Positions 4,398 to 64,000 of a stretch of 64,000 nt of DNA are shown here, one piece after another. Each line of letters begins with the position of its first letter. Within the stretch, counting starts at the first letter, position 1. The stretch is from Chiridota heheva (taxonomy: Eukaryota > Echinodermata > Holothuroidea > Apodida > Chiridotidae): positions 346,501-410,500 of the forward strand of contig JAIGNY010001237.1 of the NCBI GenBank assembly GCA_020152595.1, given 5' to 3'. Below the pieces are notes generated by a model that was not told where the DNA came from, searched no databases, and saw only the letters and a list, made by a program, of their open reading frames with translations. A program made the position numbers and the translations under genes.

Positions 4398-5033
4398 TTA
4401 TCTGGGCCCTTGGAGGTACAACCAGTGGATGGCTAGGTTTAATTCAGAGAGGGTGAGAAGGGCGTTGTAGCTTTTGGAGTTGTCGGAAGGAAAAGTGATT
4501 TTCCGGGCTTCATCAGAAGCTTTTTTGGTTTTGAAGGCATTGGAGTAGTTGGTCGAGGATGAGATGTTGCTGAAAGTGGCGACGAGGTGGTTAACGATGT
4601 CCTTTTTTGCGGTGAGAAGGTCACCATTCTGGGATATGGGAGATTTGCCCACTCTGCCGTGGAAGCTGTTAACCATTCTCCAAATCTTCTTTGTGGGGGT
4701 GTTGGTGGTGAGAGAAGAGATGAAGTTGTTCCAAGTGTTAGTTTTACTGTCCTTGATAGTGCGTCTGGCCTTGGCACGGCTGATGCGAAAGAGGTTGAGG
4801 TTATGGGTGATCAGGTTAGTTTTGAAGTTCCTGAGGGCTCTTTTCCTGTTCTTGATGGCGGTTTTGCAGTCATCAGAGAACCAGAAGTTGGGGGAATGAT
4901 TTGGGGGTTTAGGGGTTTTGGCAATTGAGCAGGTGGCGATGTTGATAAGGATATTACTGAAGTTTGACATGGCTTCCTTATCCTCAGAAATATTCACGAT
5001 CCTCCCGCAATCAGGAACTCTGAAATCACCCAA
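4398..5033 (-). pseudogene. I-like LINE linker between endonuclease and RT
   Basis: A 211-codon open frame contains FWFSDDCKTAIKNRKRALRN and KTNTWNNFISSLTTNTPTKK, the basic linker typical before LINE RT, ending in ALLTLSELNLAIHWL near the first RT motif. The frame is then lost at 4398. The start codon shown is not the real protein start; the element is truncated here. Confidence 0.65.
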
Positions 5034-39400: not shown

Positions 39401-40469
39401 CATGGTAAAGAAGCTCTGGGATTTAGTTATAATCATACCTCAGAATTAAACTATTCTGACTGATATTGATAAGGACCATTCATGAGCCAAACAGGACAAT
39501 TTCTTACTATGCTATTGTTCTGTGTTCTGTATCCATGTAGGGTATTTAATTATGAGGTTAATTAAGATGAATAAGTTAAAAAAAAATATATTATTATTTT
39601 TTCTCATGAGGGGCAGGGCGGGCCCACGGAGGGGGGTAGGCAGGGCGAGTCGCTTTTGTAAAACAGCAAAGCTAGGGGGAGGGGAAGGCAGGGAGTCGCT
39701 TCTGTAAAACAGCAAAGTTTTAATTTTTCAAAAAAGTCCAAATTTTAATCACTTTTTCCGCTGGAACAAAATCACACACCAAATTTAATTAAAATCCAAT
39801 CATCAGTCATTATGATATCTTGATGACAAACAAACAGACAAAAACAAAGAAAACATAACCTCCGTCCACCTACGTTGGTGGAGGTAATGAGCAGCTGGTC
39901 GGACTTACCGTAAGACTCTGAAGGGCAACATGGGGCACATGGTGCTTCAGTCTCTTCATGATAGATTTAAATGCATCTTTACTCCTGAGAAAGAGAAAAA
40001 CATGAATTTATTTGATTAAATACGTCAAATACAGCTGTTTGAAGATTTTAAGTAAGATACAGCTTACAAGAACTACTTTAAATGAATATCTATTCAATTA
40101 GATAAATGAGTGCAATAGTCAAACGAGTTTAAACATGTAGTATTAAAAGAAATAAAATGGTGAAGAAAGCAGTCAAGAACTCAATAAAACCTCACAGACC
40201 ATGCAAAGCAAAAATTATTTCTCAGAAGTAAAAAAATCAGAAATAGATTATAAAGAAATATATTGATATGTACTACAGTAGGTGTATGAAACTATTTTTT
40301 AGAGGGCATATGAAAAAATGGCTGCCCCCATGTAAGTTTATATTTACAGAATGTTATGTTTTCATAAAGTGGAACATATTAAAGTGGAATAATTATTATT
40401 TTTATCATATTATATAAAAAAAGCCAAAAAGGTCTCCTTTAACTTTTATTATTTTATTTTATTTTTATG

Positions 40470-40521
<52 letters not shown>

Positions 40522-43500
40522 TTATTTTATTTTTTCAAATATGTTTTTACTTTTATTATTATTTTATTATTATTATTATTTATTTATATTTATTTTATTA
40601 TTTATTTTTATCTATATTTATAATTATTATTATTATTATTATTTTATTTATTTATTTATTTTATTTAATTATTTTATTTATTTATATTTATTTTTATATT
40701 TTATTTTATTATTTATTTATTATTATTTTATTATTATTATTATTATTATCATTATTATTATTAAATGGTTACTCATAAAGCGCAAATACTAGAAAAAATG
40801 TATTCAAATGCGCTGTACATAAAAAAAAAAAGAAATAAAGAAGAAATTATCAAAGGAGTGAAAGTGAAATATAAATACATAATACTCGTAAACGTTTAAG
40901 ATGAACGATAATGAAATCAAATTGAAAAGCTATAGAGTAAAGATGTAAATAGGAAAATACAAATCTTAAAACATTGTTAAAATATTGACTGTATGAATTT
41001 ATATTTGTATATAATATTAATGATTCAAGCCCTTAGAACTTCCATATCAAAGCATTTTGGAAAAAGATTTCAAAAAGGATTCTAAAGAAATACATTATGT
41101 GTGCTAGCACATAGGGCAAAGTACTGTATGTCATCATTGTGAAAATTAGACAAAATGGCAGGTCCATGTTACAACCTCAAAGGTGGATAACTTGGTTTGG
41201 TTTGTTGATGTTTAACGGCACCGCACTTTATGCCCCTTTAACGATAGTCCTAGCTGTCCCTATCACAAAACTTATGCATTTGGGGTTGCATTTACTCTGT
41301 CACATATCTTTATGCCCCTTTAACGATAGTCCTACCTGTCCCTATCACAAAACTTACACATTTGGGGTTGCATTTACTCTGTTACATATCTTTATGCCCC
41401 TTTAACGATAGTCCTAGCTGTCCCTATCACAAAACTTATGCATTTGGGGTTGCATTTACTCTGTCACATATCTTTATGCCCCTTTAACGATAGTCCTACC
41501 TGTCCCTATCACAAAACTTATGCATTTGGGGTTGCATTTACTCTGTTACATATCTTTATGCCCCCTTTAATGATAGTCCTACCTGTCCCTATCACAAAAC
41601 TTACGCATTTGGGGTTGAATTTACTCTGTCACATATCTTTATGCCCCCTTTAACGATAGTCCTACCTGTCCGTATTACAAAACTTATGCATTTGGGGTTG
41701 CATTTACTGTGTCATATATCTTTATGCCCCCTTTAACGATAGTCCTACCTGTCCCTATCACAAAACTTACACATTTGGAGTTGCATTTACTCTGTCACAT
41801 ATCTTTATGCCCCCTTTAACGATAGTCCTACCTGTCCCTATCACAAAACTTACGCATTTGGGGTTGCATTTACTCTGTCACATATCTTTATGCCCCCTTT
41901 AACGATAGTCCCTGTCCCTATCACAAAACTTATGCATTTGGGGTTGCATTTACTCTGTCACATATCTTTATGCCCCCTTTAACGATAGTCCTAGCTGTCC
42001 CTATCACAAAACTTATGCATTTGGGGTTGCATTTACTCTGTCACATATCTTTATGCCCCTTTAATGATAGTCCTACCTGTCCCTATCACAAAACTTACAC
42101 ATTTGGGGTTGCATTTACTCTGTCACATATCTTTATGCCCCTTTAATGATAGTCCTACCTGTCCCTATCACAAAACTTATGCATTTGGGGTTGCATTTAC
42201 TCTGTCACATATCTTATGCCCCTTTAACGATAGTCCTAGCTGTCCCTATCACAAAACTTACACATTTGGGGTTGCATTTACTCTGTCACATATCTTTATG
42301 CCCCTTTAACGATAGTCCTACCTGTCCCTATCACAAAACTTATGCATTTGGGGTTGCATTTACTCTGTCACATATCTTTATGCCCCCTTTAATGATAGTC
42401 CTAGCTGTCCCTATCACAAAACTTATGCATTTGGGGTTGCATTTACTGTGTCACATATCTTTATTCCCCTTTGAAATAGTCCTACCTGTCCCTATCACAA
42501 AACTTATGCATTTGGGGTTGCATTTACTCTGTCACATATCTTTATGCCCCCTTTAACGATAGTACTACCTGTCCCTGTCACAAAACTTACACATTTGGGG
42601 TTGCATTTACTCTGTTACATATCTTTATGCCCCTTTAACGATAGTCCTACCTGTCCCTATCACAAAACTTACGCATTTGGGGTTGCATTTACTCTGTCAC
42701 ATATCTTTATGCCCCCTTTAATGATAGTCCTAGCTGTCCCTATCACAAAACTTATGCATTTGGGGTTGCATTTACTCTGTCACATATCTTTATGCCCCCT
42801 TTAATGATAGTCCTACCTGTCCCTATCACAAAACTTATGCATTTGGGGTTGCATTTACTCTGTTACATATCTTTATGCCCCTTTAATGATAGTCCTACCT
42901 GTCCCTATCACAAAACTTATCATTTGGGGTTGCATTTACTCTGTCACATATCTTTATGCCCCTTTAACGATAGTCCTACCTGTCCCTATCACAAAACTTA
43001 TGCATTTGGGGTTGCATTTACTCTGTCACATATCTTTATGCCCCTTTAATGATAGTCCTACCTGTCCCTATCACAAAACTTACGATTTGGGGTTGCATTT
43101 ACTCTGTTACATATCTTTATGCCCCTTTAATGATAGTCCTACCTGTCCCTATCACAAAACTTACGCATTTGGGGTTGCATTTACTCTGTCACATATCTTT
43201 ATGCCCCTTTAATGATAGTCCTAGCTGTCCCTATTACAAAACTTATGCATTTGGGGTTGCATTTACTCTGTCACATATCTCTATGCCCCTTTAACGATAG
43301 TCCTACCTGTCCCTATTACAAAACTTATGCATTTGGGGTTGCATTTACTCTGTCACACATCTTTATGCCCCCTTTAATGATAGTCCTACCTGTCCCTATC
43401 ACAAAACTTATGCATTTGGGGTTGCATTTACTCTGTTACATATCTTTATGCCCCCTTTAACGATAGTCCTACCTGTCCCTATTACAAAACTTACGCATTT

Positions 43501-46500
43501 GGGGTTGCATTTACTCTGTCACATATCTTTATGCCCCTTTAACGATAGTCCTACCTGTCCCTATTACAAAACTTACGCATTTGGGGTTGCATTCACACTG
43601 TCACATATCTTTATGCCCCCTTTAATGATAGTCCTACCTGTCCGTATTACAAAACTTACACATTTGGGGTTGCATTTACTCTGTCACATATCTTTATGCT
43701 CCTTTAACGATAGTCCTACCTGTCCCTATCACAAAACTTACGCATTTGGGGTTGCATTTACTCTGTCACATATCTTTATGCCCCTTTAACGATAGTCCTA
43801 CCTGTCCCTATTACAAAACTTACGCATTTGGGGTTGCATTTACTCTGTTACATATCTTTATGCCCCTTTAATGATAGTCCTAGCTGTCCCTATCACAAAA
43901 CTTACGCATTTGGGGTTGCATTTACTCTGTCACATATCTTTATGCCCCTTTAATGATAGTCCTACCTGTCCCTATCACAAAACTTACGATTTCAGGTTGC
44001 ATTTACTCTGTCACATATCTTTATGCCCCTTTAATGATAGTCCTACCTGTCCCTATCACAAAACTTACACATTTGGGGTTGCATTTACTCTGTTACATAT
44101 CTTTATGCCCCTTTAATGATAGTCCTACCTGTCCCTATTACAAAACTTACGCATTTGGGGTTGCATTTACTCTGTTACATATCTTTATGCCCCTTTAATG
44201 ATAGTCCTAGCTGTCCCTATCACAAAACTTACACATTTGGGGTTGCATTTACTCTGTCACAAATCTTTATACCCCTTTAACGATAGTCCTAGCTGTCCCT
44301 ACCACAAAACTTATGCATTTGGGGTTGCATTTACTCTGTCACATATCTTTATGCCCCCTTTGACAATAGTCCTACCTGTCCCTATTACAAAACTTATGCA
44401 TTTGGGTTGCATTTACTCTGTCACATATCTTTATGCCCCTTTAATGATAGTCCTAGCTGTCCCTATCACAAAACTTACACATTTGGGGTTGCATTTACTC
44501 TGTCACATATCTTTATGCCCCTTTAATGATAGTCCTACCTGTCCCTATCACAAAACTTACTCATTTGGGTTGCATTTACTCTGTCACATATCTTTATGCC
44601 CCTTTAACGATAGTCCTACCTGTCCCTATCACAAAACTTACGATTTGGGGTTGCATTTACTCTGTCACATATCTTTATGCCCCTTTTAATGATAGTCCTA
44701 CCTGTCCCTATCACAAAACTTATGCATTTGGGGTTGCATTTACACTGTCACATATCTTTATGCCCCTTTAATGATAGTCCTACCTGTCCCTATCACAAAA
44801 CTTATGCATTTGGGGTTGCATTTACTCTGTCACATATCTTTATGCCCCTTTAATGATAGTCCTACCTGTCCCTATCACAAAACTTATGCATTTGGGGTTG
44901 CATTTACTCTGTCATATATCTTTATGCCCCTTTAGTGATAGTCCTAGCTGTCCCTATCACAAAACTTACGCATTTGGGGTTGCATTTACTCTGTCACATA
45001 TCTTTATGCCCCTTTAATGATAGTCCTAGCTGTCCCTATCACAAAACTTATGCATTTGGGGTTGCATTTACTCTGTCACATATCTTTATGCCCCCTTTAA
45101 TGATAGTCCTACCTGTCCCTATCACAAAACTTACACATTTGGGGTTGCATTTACTCTGTCACATATCTTTATGCCCCTTTAACGATAGTCCTACCTGTCC
45201 CTATCACAAAACTTACACATTTGGGGTTGCATTTACTCTGTCACATATCTTTATGCCCCCTTTAATGATAGTCCTACCTGTCCCTATCACAAAACTTATG
45301 CATTTGGGGTTGCATTTACTCTGTCACATATCTTTATGCCCCCTTTAATGATAGTCCTACCTGTCCCTATTACAAAACTTACGATTTGGGGTTGCATTTA
45401 CTCTGTCACATATCTTTATGCCCCTTTAATGATAGTCCTACCTGTCCCTATTACAAAACTTATGCATTTGGGGTTGCATTTACTCTGTCACATATCTTTA
45501 TGCCCCCTTTAATGATAGTCCTACCTGTCCCTATCACAAAACTTATGCATTTGGGGTTGCATTTACTCTGTCACATATCTTTATGCCCCTTTAACGATAG
45601 TCCTACCTGTCCCTATCACAAAACTTACTCATTTGGGGTTGCATTTACTCTGTCACATATCTTTATGCCCCCTTTAACGATAGTCCTACCTGTCCCTATC
45701 ACAAAACTTATGCATTTGGGGTTGCATTTACTCTGTCACATATCTTTATGCCCCTTTAACGATAGTCCTACCTGTCCCTATCACAAAACTTACTCATTTG
45801 GGGTTGCATTTACTCTGTCACATATCTTTATGCCCCTTTAACGATAGTCCTACCTGTCCCTATCACAAAACTTACGATTTGGGGTTGCATTTACTCTGTC
45901 ACATATCTTTATGCCCCCTTTAATGATAGTCCTACCTGTCCCTATCACAAAACTTACCCATTTGGGGTTGCATTTACTCTGTCACATATCTTTATGCCCC
46001 CTTTAATGATAGTCCTAGCTGTCCCTATTACAAAACTTATGCATTTGGGGTTGCATTTACTCTGTCACATATCTTTATGCCCCCTTTAATGATAGTCCTA
46101 CCTGTCCCTATCACAAAACGTTAATATGCATTTGGGGTTGCATTTACTCTGTCACATATCTTTATGCCCCCTTTAACGATAGTCCTACCTGTCCCTATTA
46201 CAAAACTTACGCATTTGGGGTTGCATTTACTCTGTCACATATCTTTATGCCCCCTTTAATGATAGTCCTACCTGTCCCTATCACAAAACTTACACATTTG
46301 GGGTTGCATTTACTCTGTCACATATCTTTATGCCCCTTTAATGATAGTCCTACCTGTCCCTATCACAAAACTTACTCATTTGGGGTTGCATTTACTCTGT
46401 CACATATCTTTATGCCCCCTTTAATGATAGTCCTACCTGTCCCTATCACAAAACTTACACATTTGGGATTGCATTTACTCTGTCACATATCTTTATGCCC

Positions 46501-49500
46501 CTTTAACGATAGTCCTACCTGTCCCTATCACAAAACTTATGCATTTGGGGTTGCATTTACTCTGTCACATATCTTTATGCCCCCTTTAATGATAGTCCTA
46601 CCTGTCCCTATCACAAAACTTATGCATTTGGGGTTGCATTTACTCTGTCATATATCTTTATGCCCCTTTAATGATAGTCCTAGCTGTCCCTATCACAAAA
46701 CTTACGCATTTGGGGTTGCATTTACTCTGTCACATATCTGTATGCCCCTTTAATGATAGTCCTAGCTGTCCCTATCACAAAACTTATGCATTTGGGGTTG
46801 CATTTACTCTGTCACATATCTTTATGCCCCCTTTAATGATAGTCCTACCTGTCCCTATCACAAAACTTACACATTTGGGGTTGCATTTACTCTTGTCACA
46901 TATCTTTATGCCCCTTTAATGATAGTCCTACCTGTCCCTATCACAAAACTTACTCATTTGGGGTTGCATTTACTCTGTCACATATCTTTATGCCCCTTTA
47001 ATGATAGTCCTACCTGTCCCTATCACAAAACTTACACATTTGGGTTGCATTTACTCTGTCACATATCTTTATGCCCCCTTTAACGATAGTCCTACCTGTC
47101 CCTATCACAAAACTTATGCATTTGGGGTTGCATTTACTCTGTCACATATCTTTATGCCCCCTTTAATGATAGTCCTACCTGTCCCTATCACAAAACTTAT
47201 GCATTTGGGGTTGCATTTACTCTGTCATATATCTTTATGCCCCTTTAATGATAGTCCTAGCTGTCCCTATCACAAAACTTACGCATTTGGGGTTGCATTT
47301 ACTCTGTCACATATCTTTATGCCCCTTTAATGATAGTCCTAGCTGTCCCTATCACAAAACTTATGCATTTGGGGTTGCATTTACTCTGTCACATATCTTT
47401 ATGCCCCCTTTAATGATAGTCCTACCTGTCCCTATCACAAAACTTACGCATTTGGGGTTGCATTTACTCTGTCACATATCTTTATGCCCCTTTAACGATA
47501 GTCCTACCTGTCCCTATCACAAAACTTACGCATTTGGGGTTGCATTTACTCTGTCTCATATCTTTATGCCCCCTTTAATGATAGTCCTACCTGTCCCTAT
47601 CACAAAACTTATGCATTTGGGGTTGCATTTACTCTGTCACATATCTTTATGCCCCCTTTAATGATAGTCCTACCTGTCCCTATTACAAAACTTACGCATT
47701 TGGGGTTGCATTTACTCTGTCACATATCTTTATGCCCCCTTTAATGATAGTCCTACCTGTCCCTATTACAAAACTTATGCATTTGGGGTTGCATTTACTC
47801 TGTCACATATCTTTATGCCCCCTTTAATGATAGTCCTACCTGTCCCTATCACAAAACTTATGCATTTGGGGTTGCATTTACTCTGTCACATATCTTTATG
47901 CCCCTTTAACGATAGTCCTACCTGTCCCTATCACAAAACTTACTCATTTGGGGTTGCATTTACTCTGTCACATATCTTTATGCCCCCTTTAATGATAGTC
48001 CTACCTGTCCCTATCACAAAACTTACGCATTTGGGGTTGCATTTACTCTGTCACATATCTTTATGCCCCTTTAACGATAGTCCTACCTGTCCCTATCACA
48101 AAACTTACGCATTTGGGATTGCATTTACTCTGTCACATATCTTTATGCCCCTTTAACGATAGTCCTACCTGTCCCTATCACAAAACTTACACATTTGGGG
48201 TTGCATTTACTCTGTCACATATCTTTATGCCCCTTTAATGATAGTCCTAGCTGTCCCTATCACAAAACTTATGCATTTGGGGTTGCATTTACTCTGTCAC
48301 ATATCTTTATGCCCCCTTTAACGATAGTCCTACCTGTCCCTATTACAAAACTTATGCATTTGGGGTTGCATTTACTCTGTCACATATCTTTATGCCCCTT
48401 TAACGATAGTCCTAGCTGTCCCTATCACAAAACTTACGCATTTGGGGTTGCATTTACTCTGTCACATATCTTTATGCCCCCTTTAATGATAGTCCTACCT
48501 GTCCCTATTACAAAACTTATGCATTTGGGGTTGCATTTACTCTGTCACATATCTTTATGCCCCCTTTAATGATAGTCCTACCTGTCCCTATCACAAAACT
48601 TATGCATTTGGGGTTGCATTTACTCTGTCACATATCTTTATGCCCCCTTTAATGATAGTCCTACCTGTCCCTATTACAAAACTTATGCATTTGGGGTTGC
48701 ATTTACTCTGTCACATATCTTTATGCCCCTTTAATGATAGTCCTAGCTGTCCCTATCACAAAACGTTAATATGCATTTGGGGTTGCATTTACTCTGTCAC
48801 ATATCTTTATGCCCCCTTTAATGATAGTCCTAGCTGTCCCTATCACAAAACTTATGCATTTGGGGTTGCATTTACTCTGTCACATATCTTTATGCCCCCT
48901 TTAATGATAGTCCTACCTGTCCCTATCACAAAACTTATGCATTTGGGGTTGCATTTACTCTGTCACATATCTTTATGCCCCTTTAATGATAGTCCTACCT
49001 GTCCCTATCACAAAACTTATGCATTTGGGGTTGCATTTACTCTGTCACATATCTTTATGCCCCCTTTAATGATAGTCCTACCTGTCCCTATCACAAAACT
49101 TACGCATTTGGGGTTGCATTTACTCTGTCACATATCTTTATGCCCCTTTAATGATAGTCCTAGCTGTCCCTATCACAAAACTTATGCATTTGGGGTTGCA
49201 TTTACTCTGTCACATATCTTTATGCCCCTTTAATGATAGTCCTACCTGTCCCTATCACAAAACTTATGCATTTGGGGTTGCATTTACTCTGTCACATATC
49301 TTTATGCCCCCTTTAATGATAGTCCTACCTGTCCCTATCACAAAACTTATGCATTTGGGGTTGCATTTACTCTGTCACATATCTTTATGCCTCCTTTAAT
49401 GATAGTCCTACCTGTCCCTATCACAAAACTTATGCATTTGGGGTTGCATTTACTCTGTCACATATCTTTATGCCCCCTTTAATGATAGTCCTACCTGTCC

Positions 49501-52500
49501 CTATCACAAAACTTATGCATTTGGGGTTGCATTTACTCTGTCACATATCTTTATGCCCCCTTTAACGATAGTCCTAGCTGTCCCTATCACAAAACTTATG
49601 CATTTGGGGTTGCATTTACTCTGTCACATATCTTTATGCCCCCTTTAATGATAGTCCTACCTGTCCCTATCACAAAACTTACACATTTTGGGTTGCATTT
49701 ACTCTGTCACATATCTTTATGCCTCCTTTAATGATAGTCCTACCTGTCCCTATCACAAAACTTATGCATTTGGGGTTGCATTTACTCTGTCACATATCTT
49801 TATGCCCCTTTAATGATAGTCCTACCTGTCCCTATCACAAAACTTACACATTTGGGGTTGCATTTACTCTGTTACATATCTTTATGCCCCTTTAACGATA
49901 GTCCTACCTGTCCCTATCACAAAACTTACTCATTTGGGGTTGCATTTACTCTGTCACATATCTTTATGCCCCTTTAATGATAGTCCTACCTGTCCCTATC
50001 ACAAAACTTACTCATTTGGGGTTGCATTTACTCTGTCACATATCTTTATGCCCCCTTTAATGATAGTCCTACCTGTCCCTATCACAAAACTTACACATTT
50101 GGGATTGCATTTACTCTGTCACATATCTTTATGCCCTTTAACGATAGTCCTACCTGTCCCTATCACAAAACTTATGCATTTGGGGTTGCATTTACTCTGT
50201 CACATATCTTTATGCCCCCTTTAATGATAGTCCTACCTGTCCCTATCACAAAACTTATGCATTTGGGGTTGCATTTACTCTGTCATATATCTTTATGCCC
50301 CTTTAATGATAGTCCTAGCTGTCCCTATCACAAAACTTACGCATTTGGGGTTGCATTTACTCTGTCACATATCTGTATGCCCCTTTAATGATAGTCCTAG
50401 CTGTCCCTATTACAAAACTTATGCATTTGGGGTTGCATTTACTCTGTCACATATCTTTATGCTCCTTTAATGATAGTCCTACCTGTCCCTATCACAAAAC
50501 TTATGCATTTGGGGTTGCATTTACTCTGTCACATATCTTTATGCCCCCTTTAATGATAGTCCTACCTGTCCCTATCACAAAACTTATGCATTTGGGGTTG
50601 CATTTACTCTGTCACATATCTTTATGCCCCTTTAATGATAGTCCTAGCTGTCCCTATCACAAAACTTATGCATTTGGGGTTGCATTTACTCTGTCACATA
50701 TCTTTATGCCCCTTTAATGATAGTCCTACCTGTCCCTATCACAAAACTTATGCATTTGGGGTTGCATTTACTCTGTCACATATCTTTATGCCCCCTTTAA
50801 TGATAGTCCTACCTGTCCCTATCACAAAACTTGTGCATTTGGGGTTGCATTTACTCTGTCATATATCTTTATGCCCCTTTAACGATAGTCCTACCTGTCC
50901 CTATCACAAAACTTATGCATTTGGGGTTGCATTTACTCTGTCACATATCTTTATTCCCCCTTTAATGATAGTCCTACCTGTCCCTATCACAAAACTTATG
51001 CATTTGGGGTTGCATTTACTCTGTCATATATCTTTATGCCCCTTTAACGATAGTCCTACCTGTCCCTATCACAAAACTTATGCATTTGGGGTTGCATTTA
51101 CTCTGTCACATATCTTTAGACCCCCTTTAATGATAGTCCTACCTGTCCCTATCACAAAACTTATGCATTTGGGATTGCATTTACTCTGTCACATATCTTT
51201 ATGCCCCTTTAACGATAATCCTACCTGTCCCTATCACAAAACTTATGCATTTGGGGTTGCATTTACTCTGTCACATATCTTTATGCCCCCTTTAATGATA
51301 GTCCTACCTGTCCCTATCACAAAACTTATGCATTTGGGGTTGCATTTACTCTGTCACATATCTTTATGCCCCCTTTAATGATAGTCCTACCTGTCCCTAT
51401 CACAAAACTTGTGCATTTGGGGTTGCATTTACTCTGTCATATATCTTTATGCCCCTTTAACGATAGTCCTACCTGTCCCTATCACAAAACTTATGCATTT
51501 GGGGTTGCATTTACTCTGTCACATATCTTTATTCCCCCTTTAATGATAGTCCTACCTGTCCCTATCACAAAACTTATGCATTTGGGGTTGCATTTACTCT
51601 GTCACATATCTTTATGCCCCTTTAACGATAGTCCTACCTGTCCCTATCACAAAACTTATGCATTTGGGGTTGCATTTACTCTGTCACATATCTTTATGCC
51701 CCTTTAATGATAGTCCTACCTGTCCCTATCACAAAACTTATGCATTTGGGATTGCATTTACTCTGTCACATATCTTTATGCCCCTTTAACGATAATCCTA
51801 CCTGTCCCTATCACAAAACTTATGCATTTGGGGTTGCATTTACTCTGTCACATATCTTTATGCCCCCTTTAATGATAGTCCTACCTGTCCCTATCACAAA
51901 ACTTATGCATTTGGGGTTGCATTTACTCTGTCATATATCTTTATGCCCCTTTAATGATAGTCCTAGCTGTCCCTATCACAAAACTTACGCATTTGGGGTT
52001 GCATTTACTCTGTCACATATCTTTATGCCCCTTTAATGATAGTCCTAGCTGTCCCTATTACAAAACTTATGCATTTGGGGTTGCATTTACTCTGTCACAT
52101 ATCTTTATGCTCCTTTAATGATAGTCCTACCTGTCCCTATCACAAAACTTATGCATTTGGGGTTGCATTTACTCTGTCACATATCTTTATGCCCCCTTTA
52201 ATGATAGTCCTACCTGTCCCTATCACAAAACTTATGCATTTGGGGTTGCATTTACTCTGTCACATATCTTTATGCCCCTTTAATGATAGTCCTAGCTGTC
52301 CCTATCACAAAACTTATGCATTTGGGGTTGCATTTACTCTGTCACATATCTTTATGCCCCTTTAATGATAGTCCTACCTGTCCCTATCACAAAACTTATG
52401 CATTTGGGGTTGCATTTACTCTGTCACATATCTTTATGCCCCCTTTAATGATAGTCCTACCTGTCCCTATCACAAAACTTATGCATTTGGGGTTGCATTT

Positions 52501-55006
52501 ACTCTGTCACATATCTTTATGCCCCTTTAACGATAGTCCTACCTGTCCCTATCACAAAACTTATGCATTTGGGGTTGCATTTACTCTGTCACATATCTTT
52601 ATGCCCCCTTTAATGATAGTCCTACCTGTCCCTATCACAAAACTTATGCATTTGGGGTTGCATTTACTCTGTCATATCTTTATGCCCCTTTAACGATAGT
52701 CCTACCTGTCCCTATCACAAAACTTATGCATTTGGGGTTGCATTTACTCTGTCACATATCTTTATGCCCCTTTAACGATAGTCCTACCTGTCCCTATCAC
52801 AAAACTTACGCATTTGGGGTTGCATTTACTCTGTCACATATCTTTATGCCCCTTTAACGATAGTCCTAGCTGTCCCTATCACAAAACTTATGCATTTGGG
52901 GTTGCATTTACTCTGTCACATATCTTTATGCCCCTTTAACGATAGTCCTACCTGTCCCTATCACAAAACTTATGCATTTGGGGTTGCATTTACTCTGTCA
53001 CATATCTTTATGCCCCCTTTAATGATAGTCCTACCTGTCCCTATCACAAAACTTATGCATTTGGGGTTGCATTTAGTCTGTCACATATCTTTATGCCCCT
53101 TTAATGATAGTCCTACCTGTCCCTATCACAAAACTTACGCATTTGGGGTTGCATTTACTCTGTCACATATCTTTATGCCCCCTTTAATGATAGTCCTACC
53201 TGTCCCTATCACAAAACTTATGCATTTGGGGTTGCATTTACTCTGTCACATATCTTTATGCCCCTTTAACGATAGTCCTACCTGTCCCTATCACAAAACT
53301 TATGCATTTGGGGTTGCATTTACTCTGTCACATATCTTTATGCCCCCTTTAATGATAGTCCTACCTGTCCCTATCACAAAACTTATGCATTTGGGGTTGC
53401 ATTTACTCTGTCACATATCTTTATGCCCCCTTTAATGATAGTCCTACCTGTCCCTATCACAAAACTTATGCATTTGGGGTTGCATTTACTCTGTCACATA
53501 TCTTTATGCCCCCTTTAATGATAGTCCTACCTGTCCCTATCACAAAACTTATGCATTTGGGGTTGCATTTACTCTGTCACATATCTTTATGCCCCTTTAA
53601 TGATAGTCCTACCTGTCCCTATCACAAAACTTACTCATTTGGGGTTGCATTTACTCTGTCACATATCTTTATGCCCCTTTAATGATAGTCCTACCTGTCC
53701 CTATCACAAAACTTATGCATTTGGGGTTGCATTTACTCTGTCACATATCTTTATGCCCCCTTTAATGATAGTCCTACCTGTCCCTATCACAAAACTTACG
53801 CATTTGGGGTTGCATTTACTCTGTCACATATCTTTATGCCCCCTTTAATGATAGTCCTACCTGTCCCTATCACAAAACTTACACATTTGGGGTTGCATTT
53901 ACTCTGTCACATATCTTTATGCCCCTTTAACGATAGTCCTAGCTGTCCCTATCACAAAACTTATGCATTTGGGGTTGCATTTACTCTGTCACATATCTTT
54001 ATGCCCCTTTAACGATAGTCCTAGCTGTCCCTATCACAAAACTTACACATTTGGGGTTGCATTTACTCTGTCACATATCTTTATGCCCCTTTAACGATAG
54101 TCCTAGCTGTCCCTTATGCATTTGGGGTTGCATTTACTCTGTCACATATCTTTACTTTAAAAACTCACAAAACTTATGCATTTGGGGTTGCATTTACTCT
54201 GTCACATATCTTTATGCCCCTTTAACGATAGTCCTAGCTGTCCCTATCACAAAACTTACGCATTTGGGGTTGCATTTACTCTGTCACATATCTTTATGCC
54301 CCCTTTAACGATAGTCCTACCTGTCCGTATTACAAAACTTACGCATTTGGGGTTACATTTACTCTGTCACATATCTTTATGCCTCCTTTAATGATAGTCC
54401 TACCTGTCCCTATTACAAAACTTAAGCATTTCGGGTTGCATTTACTCTGTCACATATCTTTATGCCTCCTTTAATAATAGTCCTAGCTGTCCCTATCACA
54501 AAACTTACGCATGTGGGGTTGCATTCACACTGTCACATATCTTTATGCCCCCTTTAATGATAGTCCTAGCTGTCCCTATCACAAAACTTATGCATTTGGG
54601 GTTGCATTTACTCTGTCACATATCTTTATGCCCCCTTTAACGATAGTCCTAGCTGTCCCTATCACAAAACTTACACATTTGGGGTTGCATTTACTCTGTC
54701 ACATATCTTTATGCCCCCTTTAACGATAGTCCTAGCTGTCCCTATCACAAAACTTACGCATTTGGGGTTGCATTTACTCTGTCACATATCTTTATGCCCC
54801 TTTAACGATAGTCCTACCTGTCCCTATCACAAAACTTACACATTTGGGATTGCATTTACTCTGTTACATATCTTTATGCCCCTTTAATGATAGTCCTAGC
54901 TATCCCTATCACAAAACTTACGCATTTGGGGTTGCATTTACTCTGTCACATATGTCCATTATAAGACCCCAGTCTTCACTAGTGTTTCCTTCATTGGTAA
55001 CTTTTT
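6280..55006 (-). CDS. STAM: STAM, ESCRT-0 adaptor (eleven exons, partial at both ends)
   Basis: STAM forms ESCRT-0 with HRS on early endosomes. It binds ubiquitinated receptors through its VHS and UIM domains and recruits deubiquitinases (UBPY, AMSH) through SH3. The joined coding sequence is 54922-55006, 39909-39984, 33103-33198, 32074-32153, 30676-30748, 22995-23073, 21727-21931, 11033-11127, 8259-8435, 7247-7473 and 6280-6461, read on the minus strand: 1375 nt, about 458 residues, with phase conserved at all ten junctions. Diagnostic residues are [11 protein letters not shown] and PHVALQSLT (VHS), [12 protein letters not shown] (UIM), ALYDFEA, WWKGE and GLFPSNF (SH3), and [13 protein letters not shown] (GAT-like helix). 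Vertebrate STAM is about 540 residues, so roughly 15 N-terminal residues and part of the tail are missing here. The last exon ends at a strong donor (AG|GTGAGT), so the gene probably continues past the left edge. Orthology is certain at family level; STAM1 versus STAM2 does not apply outside vertebrates. Confidence 0.95.
6901..7083. mobile_element. hAT-type MITE, 183 bp
   Basis: It starts CAGTGGTGGCAC and ends with the inverse of CAGTGGCAGCAC (10 of 12 match). An exact 8-bp target duplication TGTACAGA flanks it (6893-6900 and 7084-7091). Eight-bp duplications and CAG-type ends are the hAT pattern. It lies in a STAM intron. Confidence 0.85.
7247..7473 (-). CDS. STAM: STAM exon, GAT-like HRS-binding helix and start of tail
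   Basis: It encodes [20 protein letters not shown], then [19 protein letters not shown] and a Gly/Pro/Met-rich stretch ending GGQ. In the family this helical region binds HRS to form the ESCRT-0 core. The acceptor is TTTTCCAG| and the donor CAG|GTAAGT, phase 0. Confidence 0.93.
7570..8224. mobile_element. Family A MITE, left arm truncated, with nested family B MITE
   Basis: The interior and right arm match 5500-6256 (TTAAACTTAAATAT-type arm; the right arm is partly duplicated at 8115-8224). A second element (family B, about 7659-7865) sits inside it, beginning after TTAA with AGGTATCATGCCATAAATA and sharing AAGTGAACGCC and GGTAACGTCACTTCCG with the copy at 38664-38930. Confidence 0.65.
8259..8435 (-). 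CDS. STAM: STAM exon, post-SH3 acidic region
   Basis: It encodes [20 protein letters not shown], then a stretch including [19 protein letters not shown] and QEMLVLEG. This is the VQF...VETIEPE...DQLLQMLQSTDP region of STAM that precedes the HRS-binding helices. The acceptor is TTAATAG| and the donor GAAG|GTAGGG. Confidence 0.93.
8511..8924 (+). repeat. Five tandem tRNA-like units (SINE heads)
   Basis: Five units with an 82-84-bp period start at about 8511, 8593, 8677, 8760 and 8843. Each has a box-A-like GCTCAGTTGGTAGAGCGC, which folds as a 4-bp D stem, and a box-B-like GGGTTCAAGCC. The anticodon and T stems pair poorly, so these are not credible working tRNA genes. They look like pol III promoter heads of a tRNA-derived SINE multiplied in tandem. 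The following 8925-9160 may be the SINE body. Confidence 0.7.
9285..9575. repeat. Dispersed repeat Y, copy 1
   Basis: Contains CTGCCATTTTGT, CACATAGGGC-type, AATGTATTTCTTA and ATGCAAAGCAAAAATTATTT blocks that recur at 11215-11560, 40190-40345 and, inverted, at 41030-41175. No coding capacity; class unknown. Confidence 0.6.
9679..9931. mobile_element. TTAA-flanked MITE (family C)
   Basis: TTAA lies at 9675-9678 and 9932-9935. Terminal inverted repeats are AGGAGCACTAGACTGAA at the left and its inverse at the right. Inside the left half is a 2.7-fold tandem of an 18-bp unit, CCACAACAGATCTATTAT (about 9725-9775). No transposase. Confidence 0.85.
10188..10893. repeat. 20-bp minisatellite array (A)
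   Basis: About 33 copies of GATCAGGTTTTATTACCGAT, with the GTTTTAT/GTGATAT variant alternating in patches, ending in a decayed tail after 10840. Each unit contains TGATCA. It lies in the STAM intron about 140 bp downstream (gene sense) of the second SH3 exon. Confidence 0.9.
11033..11127 (-). CDS. STAM: STAM exon, second half of SH3
   Basis: It encodes [20 protein letters not shown], then [11 protein letters not shown]. The paired Trp and the ALYDF-complementing PSNF motif of SH3 are present. The acceptor is TCTATAG| and the donor CCAG|GTAAGA, phase 1. I found it by looking for the missing SH3 half between 8.4 and 21.7 kb; it is too short and frame-bound to be an obvious ORF. Confidence 0.95.
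11215..11560. repeat. Dispersed repeat Y, copy 2
   Basis: Same blocks as 9285-9575 in the same orientation (CTGCCATTTTGTT, AATGTATTTCTTA, CCAAAATGATGTGACA), more decayed. It lies about 90 bp from the second SH3 exon. The stretch 11560-12045 that follows is AT-rich with nothing else recognised. Confidence 0.55.
12046..19262. repeat. 54-bp minisatellite array (B), about 133 units
   Basis: The unit is TTGCAATGCTGTACTATCTA then CCCAACACGCCACCATCTCA then GACCTGATAGCTTA. Variants: AACGCT/AATGCT, CACGCC/CCAGCC, TCTCAG/TCGCAG, GCTTATT/GCCCATT, ACTATC/ACAATC. Since 54 is divisible by 3, several frames stay open for hundreds of codons. Variation mixes silent and replacement changes and single-base indels break every frame, so it is not coding. 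It occupies the intron that splits the STAM SH3 domain. Confidence 0.97.
19277..19561. repeat. Dispersed repeat X, copy 1
   Basis: Matches 23590-23870 in the same orientation: AAAACGGGAATTCG, GAGTAAGCAA, GTGCTCTAAAAAC, TGTAATTGTGCAATGA and AAATTGCAAAAGAG blocks. It directly abuts the right end of array B. Confidence 0.7.
19562..19597. repeat. Lone decayed unit of array B
   Basis: TATTATCTACTCAACAAACC followed by ACCATCTCAATC matches the core of the 54-bp unit (ACTATCTACCCAACA..ACCATCTCAGACC). It is separated from the array by repeat X. Confidence 0.55.
19694..20073. mobile_element. TA-flanked MITE (family D)
   Basis: Terminal inverted repeats TAGACCTTTTCAAA are exact at both ends, flanked by TA. 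Interior palindrome at 19891-19911 has 10-bp arms (GCGCACGTAT). TA target sites suggest a Tc1/mariner-type mobiliser (inference). Confidence 0.75.
20390..21350. repeat. Dispersed repeat, inverted counterpart at 36.1-37.9 kb
   Basis: CCATAAAAATGATG-type, AACATCGC-type and CCCCTACTCAAGTTTTGTGACATT blocks are found again in the opposite orientation at 36100-36380 and 37830-37880. No coding potential seen. 21360-21726 is AT-rich with a poly-A run and nothing else recognised. Confidence 0.5.
21727..21931 (-). CDS. STAM: STAM exon, end of UIM and first half of SH3
   Basis: It encodes [20 protein letters not shown], a Ser/Tyr/Pro linker, then [19 protein letters not shown] and [11 protein letters not shown]. 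The SH3 start ALYDFEA and the RT-loop acidic residues are intact. The acceptor is TTTCTGCAG| and the donor GACAG|GTAAAG. It joins to an exon 10.6 kb away to make [11 protein letters not shown], so the SH3 domain is split by an intron that carries the 54-bp array. Confidence 0.95.
22030..22322. repeat. Decayed CCACATGNCATCCCA minisatellite
   Basis: Irregular repeats of CCCACATGTCATC, CACATGCCACC and CATTCCATCCTA. It resembles the array at 58.74-59.88 kb but is more diverged. It lies in the STAM intron between the UIM exons. Confidence 0.55.
22464..22671. mobile_element. hAT-type MITE, 208 bp
   Basis: Starts TAGGGCCGTCAAGAG and ends with the inverse of CAGGGCCGTCGAGAG. An exact 8-bp duplication CTTACACT flanks it (22456-22463 and 22672-22679). 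Confidence 0.85.
22995..23073 (-). CDS. STAM: STAM exon, linker and first half of UIM
   Basis: It encodes [19 protein letters not shown], then EEDDIAK, ending in G that CT of the next exon completes to Ala. Joined to the next exon it gives [15 protein letters not shown], the ubiquitin-interacting motif with its acidic start, central Ala and conserved Ser. The acceptor is TTTCACAG| and the donor AAAG|GTAATT. Confidence 0.9.
23590..23870. repeat. Dispersed repeat X, copy 2
   Basis: Same blocks as 19277-19561. 23871-25477 that follows is AT-rich intron; a possible decayed element lies at 24185-24965, with GATTAATCG-type sequence at one end and CGATTAAACG at the other. No exon seen there. Confidence 0.65.
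25478..29300. repeat. 63-bp/38-bp minisatellite array (C)
   Basis: The long unit runs TTTTAACAAAACAGAAATAT, CACTGGCAGTTTAATCTTCC, AGAACCCCAAAAAGAAAGAATGA. A short unit of about 38 bp lacks the AACAGAA...GGCAGTTTAA part, giving AACAATCTTCCAGAACCC. Both are mixed through 25.5-28.1 kb; only long units remain after 28.1 kb. At 28980-29230 four units have a distinct form, GATTTGTAAACAG, with a 60-bp period. It lies in the intron between the VHS and UIM exons. Confidence 0.93.
29805..30263. mobile_element. Family A foldback MITE, full copy
   Basis: TTAA at 29801-29804 and TTAG at the right edge. Arms as in 5401-6256 (AGGAGTACTTCAGTAGTCAA). A 22-bp segment at 30167-30188 is repeated at 30193-30214 with 4 bp between; this is the same place where copy 5401-6256 carries the LINE insertion. 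Confidence 0.8.
30368..30618 (-). mobile_element. tRNA-derived SINE
   Basis: On the minus strand it begins GGTGCAGTGGCTCAGTGGTTA (box A) and has GGGTTCGATACC (box B), followed by a TTGTGTCCTTGAGCAAG conserved body motif and CCAGGCCACTCAGCTG. This is the usual head-plus-body arrangement of SINEs. It sits about 60 bp from the last VHS exon. Confidence 0.8.
30676..30748 (-). CDS. STAM: STAM exon, end of VHS domain
   Basis: It encodes [18 protein letters not shown] followed by ASEQSV, equivalent to the last VHS helix and the short linker. The acceptor is TTCTTACAG| and the donor GTG|GTATGT, phase 0. It lies 68 bp from the 34-bp array on its upstream side and about 60 bp from a tRNA-derived SINE on its downstream side. 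Confidence 0.9.
30816..31655. repeat. 34-bp minisatellite array (D)
   Basis: About 25 copies of TTCATTAATACAACAGATTG AAGACTACCCATAC, with ACTGCCAATAC and ACTACACATAC variants. It lies 68 bp upstream (gene sense) of the last VHS exon. 31656-32073 is AT-rich with no further feature. Confidence 0.93.
32074..32153 (-). CDS. STAM: STAM exon, VHS late helices
   Basis: It encodes [20 protein letters not shown] followed by KNEPSL; vertebrate STAM has GHPKVCEKLKALMVEW here. The acceptor is TTTGCAG| and the donor CTTAG|GTAAGC. It starts in phase 0 and ends with two bases (AG) that T of the next exon completes to Ser. Confidence 0.93.
32930..33076. repeat. Dispersed repeat W with terminal hairpin, copy 1
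   Basis: Matches 39755-39890: CACTTTTTCC, ACACACYAAATT, ATTAAAATC, TCAGT, GATGACAA and AAAACATAACCTCCGTCCA. The right end folds as CCTCC...GGAGG. It ends 27 bp from the GC donor of a VHS exon. 32160-32930 holds only an AC-rich stretch (32470-32505). Confidence 0.65.
33103..33198 (-). CDS. STAM: STAM exon, VHS middle, with a GC donor
   Basis: It encodes [14 protein letters not shown], then [18 protein letters not shown], matching the LLGACVSNCGK region of vertebrate STAM. The acceptor is TCATTACAG|. The exon must end after ACAAAG in phase 0 to join the next exon (GGCCATGCC), so the donor is AAG|GCAAGT, the consensus form of a GC-AG intron. The nearby GT, four bases further on, would leave phase 1 and break the frame. 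All 32 codons are open. Confidence 0.9.
33540..34020. repeat. Dispersed repeat Z, copy 1
   Basis: Roughly 130-150-bp subunits with AAGCCnnGCCnACTCATTAA, CATCACCA, TGGGCTATCTGTGTACC and TGAGATATCATG blocks, repeated two to three times. Found again at 36720-37150. Confidence 0.65.
34021..35461. other. Intron stretch without a recognised gene
   Basis: Contains an (ATT)n microsatellite near 34156-34180, a diverged ATGTACAGGT repeat at 34200-34272 and a 13-G run near 34595. No exon or RNA gene seen. Confidence 0.5.
35466..35584. mobile_element. Family A MITE, short deleted copy
   Basis: After TTAA (35462-35465) it begins AGGATTAGTTCTCTTATGCT and ends GACCACTGAACTAATCCT. Only the arm ends remain, so the middle was lost. 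Confidence 0.7.
36720..37330. repeat. Dispersed repeat Z, copy 2, with TACA microsatellite and hairpin end
   Basis: Subunits as in 33540-34020, then (TACA)n/(CA)n at about 37170-37262, then GGTTCCTGATGC...GCATCGGAACCAAAAAT, a hairpin end. A similar module, GGTTCGCAT...ATGCGAACCAAAAAT, is at 60395-60430. Confidence 0.6.
37575..37720. mobile_element. I-like LINE 3' end fragment
   Basis: TCTAACGGCACCGCGACAGT and TCAAATGTGCCAAGAGG resemble TTAACGGCACCACAAC and TCAAATTGTGCCTGAGAGG at 1890-1930, at the 3' end of the I-like LINE. A further 30-bp piece is at about 41195-41225, at the left border of array E. Confidence 0.55.
38664..38930. mobile_element. TTAA-flanked foldback MITE (family B)
   Basis: TTAA at 38660-38663 and 38931-38934. 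Inverted arms of about 100 bp share GTCCCATAAATAC, AGTGAACGCC and GACGTCAC-type sequence. A diverged copy is nested at about 7659-7865. Confidence 0.75.
39755..39890. repeat. Dispersed repeat W with terminal hairpin, copy 2
   Basis: Same as 32930-33076; the hairpin end is CCTCCGTCCACC...TGGTGGAGG. It ends 18 bp from the donor of the second VHS exon. 38935-39754 holds no recognised gene. Confidence 0.65.
39909..39984 (-). CDS. STAM: STAM exon, VHS helices 2-3
   Basis: It encodes [15 protein letters not shown] followed by [10 protein letters not shown]; vertebrate STAM has an equivalent SIMRRV...PHVAMQALT. The acceptor is CTTTCTCAG| and the donor ACG|GTAAGT, phase 0. It is separated from the previous exon by a 14.9-kb intron that is almost entirely minisatellite. 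A dispersed repeat ends about 20 bp downstream of its donor. Confidence 0.93.
40467..40765. repeat. ACT and TTA microsatellites
   Basis: About 17 ACT triplets (40468-40520), then some 240 bp of TTA/TTTA-rich sequence. Open frames of poly-Thr or Tyr/Ile here are artefacts. Confidence 0.9.
41226..54953 (-). repeat. 82/83-bp array (E) derived from a STAM exon end and splice donor, about 165 units
   Basis: On the minus strand each unit is ATATGTGACAGAGTAAATGC AACCCCAAATGC (identical to the last 32 bases of exon 54922-55006), then the donor GTAAGT or ATAAGT, then about 44 bases of intron ending GGGGCATAAAG. Units of 82 and 83 bp differ by one C in the CCCC/CCCCC run. The last unit (54872-54953) is the real exon end. 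The array fills most of the intron between the first two VHS exons. Confidence 0.95.
54922..55006 (-). CDS. STAM: STAM exon, start of VHS domain
   Basis: The minus strand encodes [20 protein letters not shown] followed by DRVNATPNA, aligning without gaps to the first VHS helices of animal STAM. The acceptor is TTTTACAG| and the donor GC|GTAAGT. The exon enters with two bases of a codon and leaves with two (GC), completed by G of the next exon. Its last 32 bases (54922-54953), the donor and the following intron bases form the final unit of the 82/83-bp array at 41.2-54.9 kb. The upstream coding exon, which should encode a short MPLF-type start, was not found between here and 64000. Confidence 0.92.
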
Positions 55007-56708
55007 CTGTAAAACAAAGAAAAGACAATTTAGTAAGATAGTAACTTACTAGTGCTGTAACGACATGGCTCAATTACGTATCAATTATCGTAGAGAAAAA
55101 CATCGCAATATATTGGTACAATGCAATACTTTTCAAGGAAACGACTCATGACACAAATTGTTAATATCACTAACGTTACTTCTTTTATGACTGTATAATG
55201 AACGCAACAAAAAATGATTTGCAGATCTAGCAGACAACATGATCGCGTGATTATTACGTTCATCATGCATCACACACGTATTTGGTAATTCAGCCAACGT
55301 GACTGACCATAAATCAAGTGAGAGGCATGTTCTGGGCCAAATTTTCATTATTTTTGCCTACTTACATCGGAATGTGTCAGTGTGGGGTGAAGGAGCACGA
55401 TTTTCAATTAGTTGTTTTTATGTTTCACGGTATTTCGCACGTTTTTAATGGCCTAAACTTGGCTTTAAACGTATGAAGTAGCCTAGCCTAGTTGCGCGAA
55501 AATTTCTTAGTTCTGTATTAGTTTTTAGTATCGCAATATGTGTTGAGAGGAACATTTCATGCCGTGGGAAAAAAAATATCGCAATAATCGACATGTCATG
55601 GCAGTACTATAAGTTACTATTTTATTATACAAGTCTATGTCAAGGATGTGGTAACAATGGGTGTTACGTTCAGTAGGATGGTATGACCCCCTAAGATCCA
55701 AAATCTTGAATTACACAGAAGATTATGTCACGCCGAATACTCCAATACTGTAGTCTTGTAAATGTAAATACCCTTATAGGGCACGGGCCTAGGCGGCAAC
55801 TGGCTCTCCCCCCCCCCTCTCCCTCCCCCCTCTCTTTGTTAAGCCACTACATATCAAGAGATAATGGACTATGCAATTTAGGGATATGCCCCTCTCAACC
55901 AATCACATTTCAGGAAACAAACTTGGGTGTAAAAAAGTATTTTCACCACAGAATTTAAAAGTTACTGTTAATAGGCCCTAAGAATACGCATTGGACTATA
56001 TTTTTGCTCAGTTTAAATCTCAAAATAAAATGGTCATCATTATTAGCAAGATATTTGCGCCGCTTTTAGGTCTTACATAAGTATATTTTTTCATCCACAT
56101 ATTTATCAAAACTATTTTAATTTCTTTCTTCGACAAATCCATGAATACCCCGAAGTTTGTGTAGCCTACCAATGATAAATATGACTTTTAAGAGCTGTAC
56201 CAGTAAAGCATAAAAAGGCTTGAACAAAAATACAAGAACGAATTACTGAGTTTAATTTCTACAATAATGATATACTGTATGGTAGGTATGGTACTGTACT
56301 TCAGGTACTTATGGTACTTCTTTACATCTACTTCTATTCTATGTGGATACTTATTAAAAGGCTGTTCAACAACTGGATGAGGGATAACTGCAGTGACACA
56401 AGCGATGGATTACGAATCTTCATACTCCAACTCCTTCGCTCTGAATCTCTCTAGTTTAGAGTATGAACGATTACATACATCAAAAACTTACACAATTAGG
56501 CAAAGTCAATGGGATTCAATAAATTTTCAACAACAAAAAATGCCCAGAATTTTAAGGAACTTGATTTTCGATATGAATACTTCCATATTTTAACCTGAAA
56601 ATCAGCACATTGAAACTTGAATTTGTTTGACATATTGTGAATATCGTAATAACTCAAATTGCTATCCTACAAAAATATACATTTTTGGTGAGCGTCTTGA
56701 CAAACATG
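55007..56708. other. First visible STAM intron, no exon recognised
   Basis: Unique-looking sequence with a 30-bp pyrimidine run at 55806-55835. I searched for a short MPLF-type first coding exon with a phase-1 donor and did not find one. Confidence 0.45.
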
Positions 56709-58737: not shown

Positions 58738-59880
58738 CACACTAAGTTTAACATGGCATCCCATGTGCCACATGGCATCTCACCCCATGTGCCACATGGC
58801 ATCCCACCCAATGTCACACATGGCATCCCACCCAATGTCCCACATGACATCCCATCCCATGTCCCACATGGCATTCCACTATATCTTCCACATGGCATTC
58901 CACCCAATGTCCCACATGACATCCCATCCCATGTCCCACATGGCATTCCACTATATCTTCCACATGGCATCCCACCCCGTGTCCCACATGACATCCCATC
59001 CCATGTCCCACATGGCATTCCACCATATCTTCCACATGGCATCCCACCACATGTCCCACATGACATCCCATGTCCCACGTGGCATACCATCATGTCCCAT
59101 GGGGCATCCCACCCCATGTCCCACATGACATTCCATCTCATGTCCCACATGGCATTCCACCATATCTCCAAATGGCATCCCACCCCATGTCCCACATGAC
59201 AGCCAATGTCCCACGTGGCTTTCCCTTATATGTCCCACAGGGCATCCCATTCTATGACCCACATGGCATTCCATCCTATATCCCACATCCCAAATGACAT
59301 CCCACCTCATGTCCCACATGACATCCAATGCCTTGTCCCACATGGCATTCCACCATACAGTGTCTCACATGGCATTCCACCATATGTCCCACATGGCATT
59401 CCACCATATGTCCCACATGGCATCCCACGCTATGACCCACATGGATCCCATCCTACATGTATGTCCCACATTAATCCAACCATGTCCCACATCCCTCCCT
59501 ATGTCCCAAATGGTATCCCTCCCTGTGTCCCGCATCAGTGGCTTCCCACCTGATGTTCCACATGGCAGCCCACCATGTTCCACATGGTATCCCTCCCAAC
59601 TATGTATAAAAGTGTCAGTTCATATAATAACTTATATGCAAATGACTTGCTGAAATGAAGTGGGACGCCATGTCCCACATAACATCCCATGTCCCACATG
59701 ACATTCCATCCCACAGCAATCCACCCTATGTCCTGCATGGCATTCCACCACATATCCTACGCGGCATTCCATCCTGTTCCACATAGCATCCCACCCCATG
59801 TCCCACATGGCATCCCACCCCATGTCCCACATGGCCCCCATCCATGTCCCACATGGCATCCCTCCCTATGTCCATATGCA
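58738..59880. repeat. CCCACATGGCATCC minisatellite
   Basis: Roughly 24-bp units (CACATGGCATCCCACCCCAT GTCC) with GACATCCCATCC and GGCATTCCACCATATC variants, often in 72-bp trios. An 80-bp non-repeat stretch interrupts it at about 59592-59670. Open frames on both strands result from the absence of stops in the unit. Confidence 0.92.
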
Positions 59881-62931: not shown

Positions 62932-63180
62932 CTAGTTAGCAATACAGGTGTTAGTAAGTTTAGCTTTGAAACAGTTGAGACTTAGTGCATGAACAATGTC
63001 TGACGGTAAAGCATTCCAATCCTTTAGTGTGTGAGGGAAGAAAGAGTGTTTATATACATTCTTTTTAGCATAGGGAACCTGGAAATTAAGGTCATGATTA
63101 TTTCTTGTATTAGTTCTAACGGTGGGGATAAGTTCATCTTTATTGATGGCGACAAGATTGTTATTGATTTTATATAGCAT
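62932..63180 (-). pseudogene. LINE RT C-terminal tail
   Basis: LYKINNNLVAINKDELIP, then KHSFFPHTLKDWNALPSDIV and FKAKL, ending in a stop. This is the RxxSFFPRTIRDWNxLP-type C terminus of Jockey/CR1/L2 RTs. It is frameshifted relative to 63224-63811. Confidence 0.8.
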
Positions 63181-63223
63181 ATGCAGCGGGTGTTGTATCG
63201 TCTTGTTTTAAGCAGGGGCCAAT

Positions 63224-63811
63224 CTAATTTATAAAGCATGTTTTTACACTAGATTTATAAGAGTAGTCTGCCATACAGAACCTGGCTGCTCTCCTTTGAA
63301 TAGATTCAAGTTTATCCACATCGCACTGGTGATGGGGGTCCCAGACTGCAGATGCGTACTCAAGTACTGGCCTGACTAGAGCTTTATAGGCAGTGGATTT
63401 AACGTCGGTGGGACAGTTTGAGAGGTTACGTTTTAAAAGGCCAAGTATAGAGTTAGCTTTCTTGGTTATGTTATGTATATGTTTATCCCATCTAAGTTTA
63501 TTATCAATTTCAACACCTAGGTATGGGTGGGAGTTGACATGTTTTAGTGGCTGGTTGCATAAGGTATAAACAGGTGATTTAAAGCATTTCTTAGAGGAAA
63601 TTGACAAGATGTAGCATTTGGAGGGGTTGAAATTCATTTGCCATTTGTTTTGCCATTGTTCAAGTTTGTTAAGATCATCTTGGAGGATTTGTTGGTCAGA
63701 GGGGTTATCAATTGTTCTGTACACAAGGCAGTCATCAGCAAACAGTCTGACTGTGCTGTTTATATCATCAGGGATGTCATTTATATATAAGAGGAAAAGT
63801 AATGGACCCAA
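63224..63811 (-). pseudogene. LINE reverse transcriptase, catalytic part
   Basis: Contains GPLLFLLYINDIPDDI, the catalytic LFADDCLVYR (FADD), NPSKCYILSIS, YLGVEIDNKLRWDKHI and LVRPVLEYASAVWDPH, in the correct order. Upstream, 63815-64000 continues in shifted frames with a DFSKAFDKVP-type motif. At 63224-63245 the frame is lost, and the C terminus continues at 62932-63180 in another frame. Confidence 0.85.
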
Positions 63812-64000
63812 GACAGTACCTTGTGGTACACGGATAAAACCTGTTTAGAATCAGAGATTTCACCATCGCAAACAACACGCTGGATGCGGTTGTTGAGGAA
63901 TGATGCAAACCAGGCCAGAAGATTTCCATCAATGCCATAGGCAGAAAGTTTGGATAACAGGCGCTGGTGGGGACTTTATCAAAGGCTTTTGAGAAGTCAA

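Follow-up and report, generated by a model that had tools for sequence, protein, structure and literature searches.

STAM locus and host exon

The window analysed here, a 64,000-nucleotide stretch of Chiridota heheva contig JAIGNY010001237.1, carries nine exons of a STAM gene, and most of the intron following exon 2 is filled by a minisatellite array that begins with the 3′ end of that exon (Table 1). On the minus strand exon 2 is preceded by TTTTACAG and followed by GTAAGT, so that the exon limits proposed in the first-pass annotation are exact, with splice signals on both sides. Some 2.2 kb outside the window, at L017 2266-2308, is exon 1 (MPLFGSSTPFDHDV), which together with the nine window exons gives one frame of 336 residues without a stop codon; at least one additional 3′ STAM exon match, at 7313-7468, falls outside this join. 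Pfam identified a VHS domain (2e-34) and an SH3_1 domain (1e-17) in the joined frame, and a UIM with 20.3 bits, just under the cut-off of 21. Residues 1-150 match the human STAM2 entry 1x5b (4e-52). In the PDB match to STAM2 the exon 2 peptide aligns free of gaps, and so do the 11 residues coded by the last 11 codons of the exon. Judged from these protein matches, exon 2 is a real STAM (VHS-domain) exon that is conserved in STAM1/2.

The DNA of exon 3 was found at one place in the assembly (among the 40 scored of 1903 candidates), and the 41 other rows for this query all fall in query positions 1-144, which is a dispersed repeat adjoining the exon. The edge of a dispersed repeat family is also seen at 39765-39893, near exon 3. 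The search for Pfam VHS gave three places: one is exon 4 of the present gene, and the remaining two resemble this STAM only weakly. It may be noted that the intron after exon 4 starts with GC (33101-33102; ACAAAG/GCAAGT) and is apparently a GC-AG intron.

Table 1. Coordinates of the STAM features, the array and the neighbouring dispersed repeat in the window.
Feature	Position	Strand	Description	Evidence
STAM exon 2	54922..55006	(-)	85 nt, VHS domain	Splice signals, open frame, PDB STAM2/STAM1 matches, Pfam VHS
Seed of the array	54922-54953	(-)	Last 32 nt of STAM exon 2
Real 5′ splice site GT	54920..54921	(-)	ATGC/GTAAGT, inside the first unit
Host intron	39985..54921	(-)	14,937 bp
STAM exon 3	39909..39984	(-)	Next exon after the array; phase agrees (GC/G AGT AAA GAT)
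Minisatellite array	41226..54953	(-)	167 tandem units, mostly 82/83 bp	TRF, unit split and alignment
Exon-attached unit (u000)	54872..54953	(-)	32 nt exon and 50 nt intron	Unit split
Dispersed repeat copy	41086..41194		31 bp from the distal end of the array	At least 39 further places (40 scored of 1353 candidates)

Extent, unit and breakpoint of the array

TRF reports the array as rows with an 82/165-bp period at 41226-54154 and a continuation at 54165-54953. When the minus strand is split into units, the 166 spacings are 82 bp in 79 cases, 83 bp in 70 cases and 81 bp in 10 cases, with seven others. The total length of 13,728 bp and the 167 units agree well with the earlier estimate of about 165 units and 13.7 kb. 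The unit consists of the last 32 nt of exon 2, the 5′ splice site (GTAAGT) and the adjoining intron, with 50 nt intronic in all, and thereby spans the exon-intron boundary of a verified STAM exon. An exact match to the 32-nt exon end is present at 99 places in 41226-54953, counting the exon itself, and at 0 places on the same strand of the remaining window. The 98 extra exact copies are far beyond chance.

The match between exon and array is continuous through the donor and ends at 54953. The first-pass annotation had placed the breakpoint inside the exon at this position, and the exon context that spans it is indeed present at 0 places in the array when up to 2 substitutions are allowed. Also, 165 of the 166 expected unit junctions were found with one identical breakpoint (up to 4 errors allowed). 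As the same breakpoint recurs at 165 junctions and the exon context at none of the array places, a single founding duplication suffices to account for the array.

Distribution of the unit in the genome

The 1.1-Gb assembly (3744 contigs) was searched with patterns from both halves of the unit, for which the totals are complete. With up to 2 mismatches allowed, a 26-mer from the exonic half matches 166 places genome-wide and 166 in the window, where one is the end of the exon itself; a 38-mer from the intronic half, allowed up to 3 mismatches, gives 162 genome-wide and 162 in the window. Both patterns gave 0 matches on the opposite strand and 0 with the reversed-pattern controls. Copies of the unit at other loci, as a dispersed satellite or mobile element would have, were thus not found in 1.1 Gb by this pattern search, which copies diverged by more than 2-3 mismatches would escape. 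A 32-mer of the unit had 0 matches in the prokaryote collection and a 40-mer had 0 in the viral collection. Since the exon end is conserved in STAM proteins and the unit was found nowhere else in the assembly by these patterns, it is the exon that seeded the array. The earlier proposal of a real STAM exon whose exon/intron junction served as the seed is therefore upheld by both the STAM conservation and the single locus.

Other repeats in the window and a background sample

The window is very rich in minisatellites. Further long arrays are seen at 12042-19264 (54-bp units), 25472-29306 (about 63 bp), 30826-31653 (34 bp) and 58751-59873 (24 bp), the first three in STAM introns. Ten other window arrays (TRF, with shorter and low-complexity rows excluded) were considered as possible exon-edge arrays and rejected, as 0 of 10 overlap any of the nine window STAM exons for which both ends are set. 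Five of the ten match sequence elsewhere in the window, and none of the matching stretches listed (at most 12 per array) is on a STAM exon. The arrays at 30826-31653 and 8521-8925 lie near 3′ splice sites, ending just 78 and 86 bp before STAM exons. The array at 8521-8925 has about 4.9 copies of an 83-bp unit that looks tRNA-like by eye (GCTCAGTTGGTAGAGC...GGGTTCAAGCC); Rfam and ARAGORN gave 0 hits, this unit included. Most of 39 rows of a dispersed repeat start about 40 bp upstream of exon 2, with the edge at about 55046-55100. Long minus-strand frames at 924-5033 and 62935-63844 resemble LINE reverse transcriptases (YVDD and ADD motifs, by eye).

As a background sample, TRF was run on 30 of 134 kinase places (106,956 bases), giving 15 rows that merge into 12 arrays. 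Nine of the 12 have no match outside themselves and 3 match nearby sequence, and 0 of the 12 overlap the kinase match (1500-base flanks assumed). This sample says little about the genome-wide rate of exon-edge arrays.

Turnover within the array

The 167 units comprise 91 distinct sequences, and the longest identical block is of four consecutive units that recur 20 units apart. A regular higher-order structure was not found: the best lag is 23 units, with 0.769 against a shuffled 95% point of 0.764, and lag 2 does not exceed the shuffled 95% point. Divergence from the consensus increases with distance from the exon, weakly over all units (Spearman 0.19, p = 0.01) and more clearly past the first 13 units (Spearman 0.41, p = 9e-8). 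This outward rise suggests that the most recently homogenised part is near, but not at, the exon. The mean number of pairwise differences is 9.48 in the first 14 units as opposed to 2.18-5.0 in ten later 14-unit blocks (units 14-153), the value of the first block being inflated in part by two truncated units, of 60 and 71 bp. Five interior units are each a single base away from the exon-attached unit, to which the first units are no closer than the remaining ones. Strand folding of the unit gave no signal (z from -0.59 to 0.21).

Sequence constraint and loss of the donor

The first-pass annotation held that most units keep the 32 exonic bases. This is correct as a count, since they are unchanged in 99 of 167 units with the exon itself counted, but it does not reflect any special conservation. 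The mean minor fraction over all columns is 1.5% in the exonic and 2.8% in the intronic part; on removing the four CpG columns the values become 0.9% (31 exonic columns) and 1.3% (47 intronic columns), with a permutation p = 0.38. Codon positions 1, 2 and 3 of the exonic part have 0.8, 1.4 and 0.5%, which gives no codon-position signal in this half of the units. The copied exon piece is therefore without visible extra constraint.

The GT of the donor is kept in 69 of the 167 units and lost in 98, i.e., it is present in many but not all of them. A CpG straddles the exon/intron junction of the unit, so that its one-sided decay is enough to kill the donor. A change of G to A is seen in 97 of 167 units at the donor CpG versus 106 of 167 at a control CpG (p = 0.37), and the whole CpG is intact in 36 units at the donor versus 58 at the control (p = 0.01). 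Loss of the donor GT is thus mostly a CpG-type change, about as frequent at the control CpG.

Splice signals of the array

A second donor-like site, CAG/GTAGGA, is present 22 nt past the first and is alive in 125 of 167 units; only 26 units have neither site. It is dead in the exon-attached unit, and the nearest alive copy is about 104 nt from the real donor. A crude estimate of U1-pairing energy ranks the real donor last among the nine window donors of STAM, at -5.7 kcal/mol, with the eight others at -6.6 to -11.3 kcal/mol; CAG/GTAGGA is at -11.2 kcal/mol. With the real donor the weakest and a stronger site in most units, mis-splicing may be real. CAG/GTAGGA is alive in 3 of the 13 units nearest to the exon versus 122 of the 154 others (p = 6e-5, the cut at 13 being post hoc); with the cut at 20 it is alive in 10 of the 20 nearest units, and in the last 13 units it is alive in 8. 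A retained ancestral state explains this deficit at the edge without selection, and it could also reflect selection.

On the sense strand, AG sites that look like acceptors (11 or more pyrimidines among the 15 upstream bases) number 0 in the array versus 204 in the other 50,219 bases. With donor-like sites present and acceptor-like ones absent by this simple rule, units of the array would be unlikely to become exons. Reading beyond the real donor gives an in-frame TAA as the first codon. Use of a deeper donor adds this stop at once, and the resulting truncated transcripts would probably be degraded. Also on the minus strand of the array, 156 of 167 units contain CATAAA, with 157 copies in total, and ATTAAA has 105 copies, so that variant poly(A) signals lie beside donor-like sites in most units.

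The human F7 intron-7 VNTR has just a handful of units, and its unit is shorter than that of the STAM array. In STAM, as in an F7-type arrangement, the real 5′ splice site is inside the first repeat, and the open frame through the first donor is consistent with F7-type use of the most upstream 5′ splice site alone.

Comparison with known boundary repeats

The first-pass annotation regarded a satellite seeded by an exon edge and its own donor as an undescribed pattern. This does not hold, as a paper on amphioxus already describes tandem repeats that span exon-intron boundaries, called mirages, in Adh3 and the globins BflGb6 and BflGb9 (PMC3087553). As reported there, the BflGb6 mirage has 6 and 3 units of 150-160 bp each in two haplotypes, the boundary duplicated in BflGb9 is a 3′ one, and according to RT-PCR regular splicing seems to be preserved (PMC3087553). 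The STAM array resembles these mirages in the tandem duplication of a boundary and in having splice signals in many but not all units, may resemble them in the internal homogenisation described for mirage clusters, from which the cluster boundary is excluded, and resembles BflGb9 also in that the 3′ exon boundary is the one duplicated (PMC3087553). It differs from BflGb6, as there described, in having 167 units, mostly of 82/83 bp, over 13.7 kb instead of 3 or 6 units of 150-160 bp. The pattern is already known on a smaller scale, and size is what stands out here.

Human paralogs in segmental duplications carry internal tandem repeats where exons meet introns, and these repeats are able to activate cryptic splice sites and to create new introns (PMC2812944). 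They are, like the STAM array, minisatellite expansions at an exon-intron boundary, but the units there are of 30 bp on average and repeated 4 times, in recent paralogs (PMC2812944). The MSTN-2 repeat of sea bream is at the 5′ end of an intron, with an exon part unmentioned in the available excerpt (PMC3045353). The portions at hand of an F7 case report (PMC6783214) and of a paper on amphioxus huntingtin (PMC2206037) have nothing on exon-boundary repeats.

Proposed origin and tolerance of the array

We consider it likely that this is a very large, probably non-functional minisatellite of the mirage type that is tolerated because the first donor wins. An 82-bp stretch that takes in the 3′ edge of exon 2, the adjoining 5′ splice site and 50 intronic nt would have been duplicated once in tandem, for which the common breakpoint is the support. 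Growth to 167 units would then have taken place by unequal exchange, slippage or gene conversion inside one intron, as suggested by the repeated multi-unit blocks together with the lack of copies elsewhere. STAM would stay functional by use of the first donor past the exon's own 3′ splice site, either through exon definition or through scanning oriented 5′ to 3′. The units meanwhile drift without visible constraint, and in most of them a CpG-type change at the exon/intron junction has destroyed the donor GT. Weighing against this reading are the weakness of the real donor beside CAG/GTAGGA, the rarer intact CpG at the donor than at the control, the loss of CAG/GTAGGA in 10 of the 13 units nearest to the exon and the lack of a regular higher-order structure.

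It is possible, though we think it unlikely, that the array and the final 11 codons of exon 2 also exchange sequence by gene conversion. The one-base distance of the exon-attached unit from five interior units is compatible with such traffic. The coding edge would then evolve in concert with 166 non-coding copies, and CpG decay in those copies would keep supplying the real exon with alleles that kill its donor.

The same one-base distance, which places the exon end and the array still in register, could be taken in favour of a satellite that came first and from which the exon edge was derived, by exonisation or by the array converting the exon end. We find this highly improbable, because 11 residues aligning gap-free to STAM2 are not expected of a satellite by chance, and the unit is not found elsewhere in the assembly by pattern search. 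Equally hard to credit is that the exon edge was captured by a dispersed satellite or by a mobile element containing internal tandem repeats, of which the array would be part: one dispersed repeat does stop 31 bp short of the array's distal end and another starts about 40 bp upstream of exon 2, but neither half of the unit occurs outside the array in 1.1 Gb at up to 2-3 mismatches, and these single-locus counts largely refute the idea. That the number of units is an artefact of assembly is also very doubtful. Long arrays are often mis-assembled and one assembly is behind the count, yet the 167 units have 91 distinct sequences and the surrounding gene is correctly phased.

Somewhat less remote, but still improbable in our judgement, is a function for the array. 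Its decoy donors, tens in number, could work as a switch of splicing, giving a poison extension of exon 2, or could serve as landing sites for U1 and so protect the long intron against premature polyadenylation. Such a role would fit the retention of the first-donor GT in 69 of 167 units and of CAG/GTAGGA in 125, with just 26 lacking both, as well as the weakness of the real donor among the nine; CATAAA (157) and ATTAAA (105) are dense, so shielding could matter. Against this, G to A changes are about as common at the donor as at the control CpG (97 versus 106 of 167), and the exonic half is unconstrained with no codon-position signal.

The array is an extreme natural test of 5′ splice site choice, in which a real donor is followed by tens of others that share its 32-nt exonic context; all that sets it apart from them is the upstream 3′ splice site together with the 53 bases of the exon that the unit does not include. 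Clean splicing of the gene would strongly favour exon definition or oriented scanning over free competition between donors. Boundary minisatellites, which have been reported with few units, can thus reach 13.7 kb while the frame of the host gene stays open.
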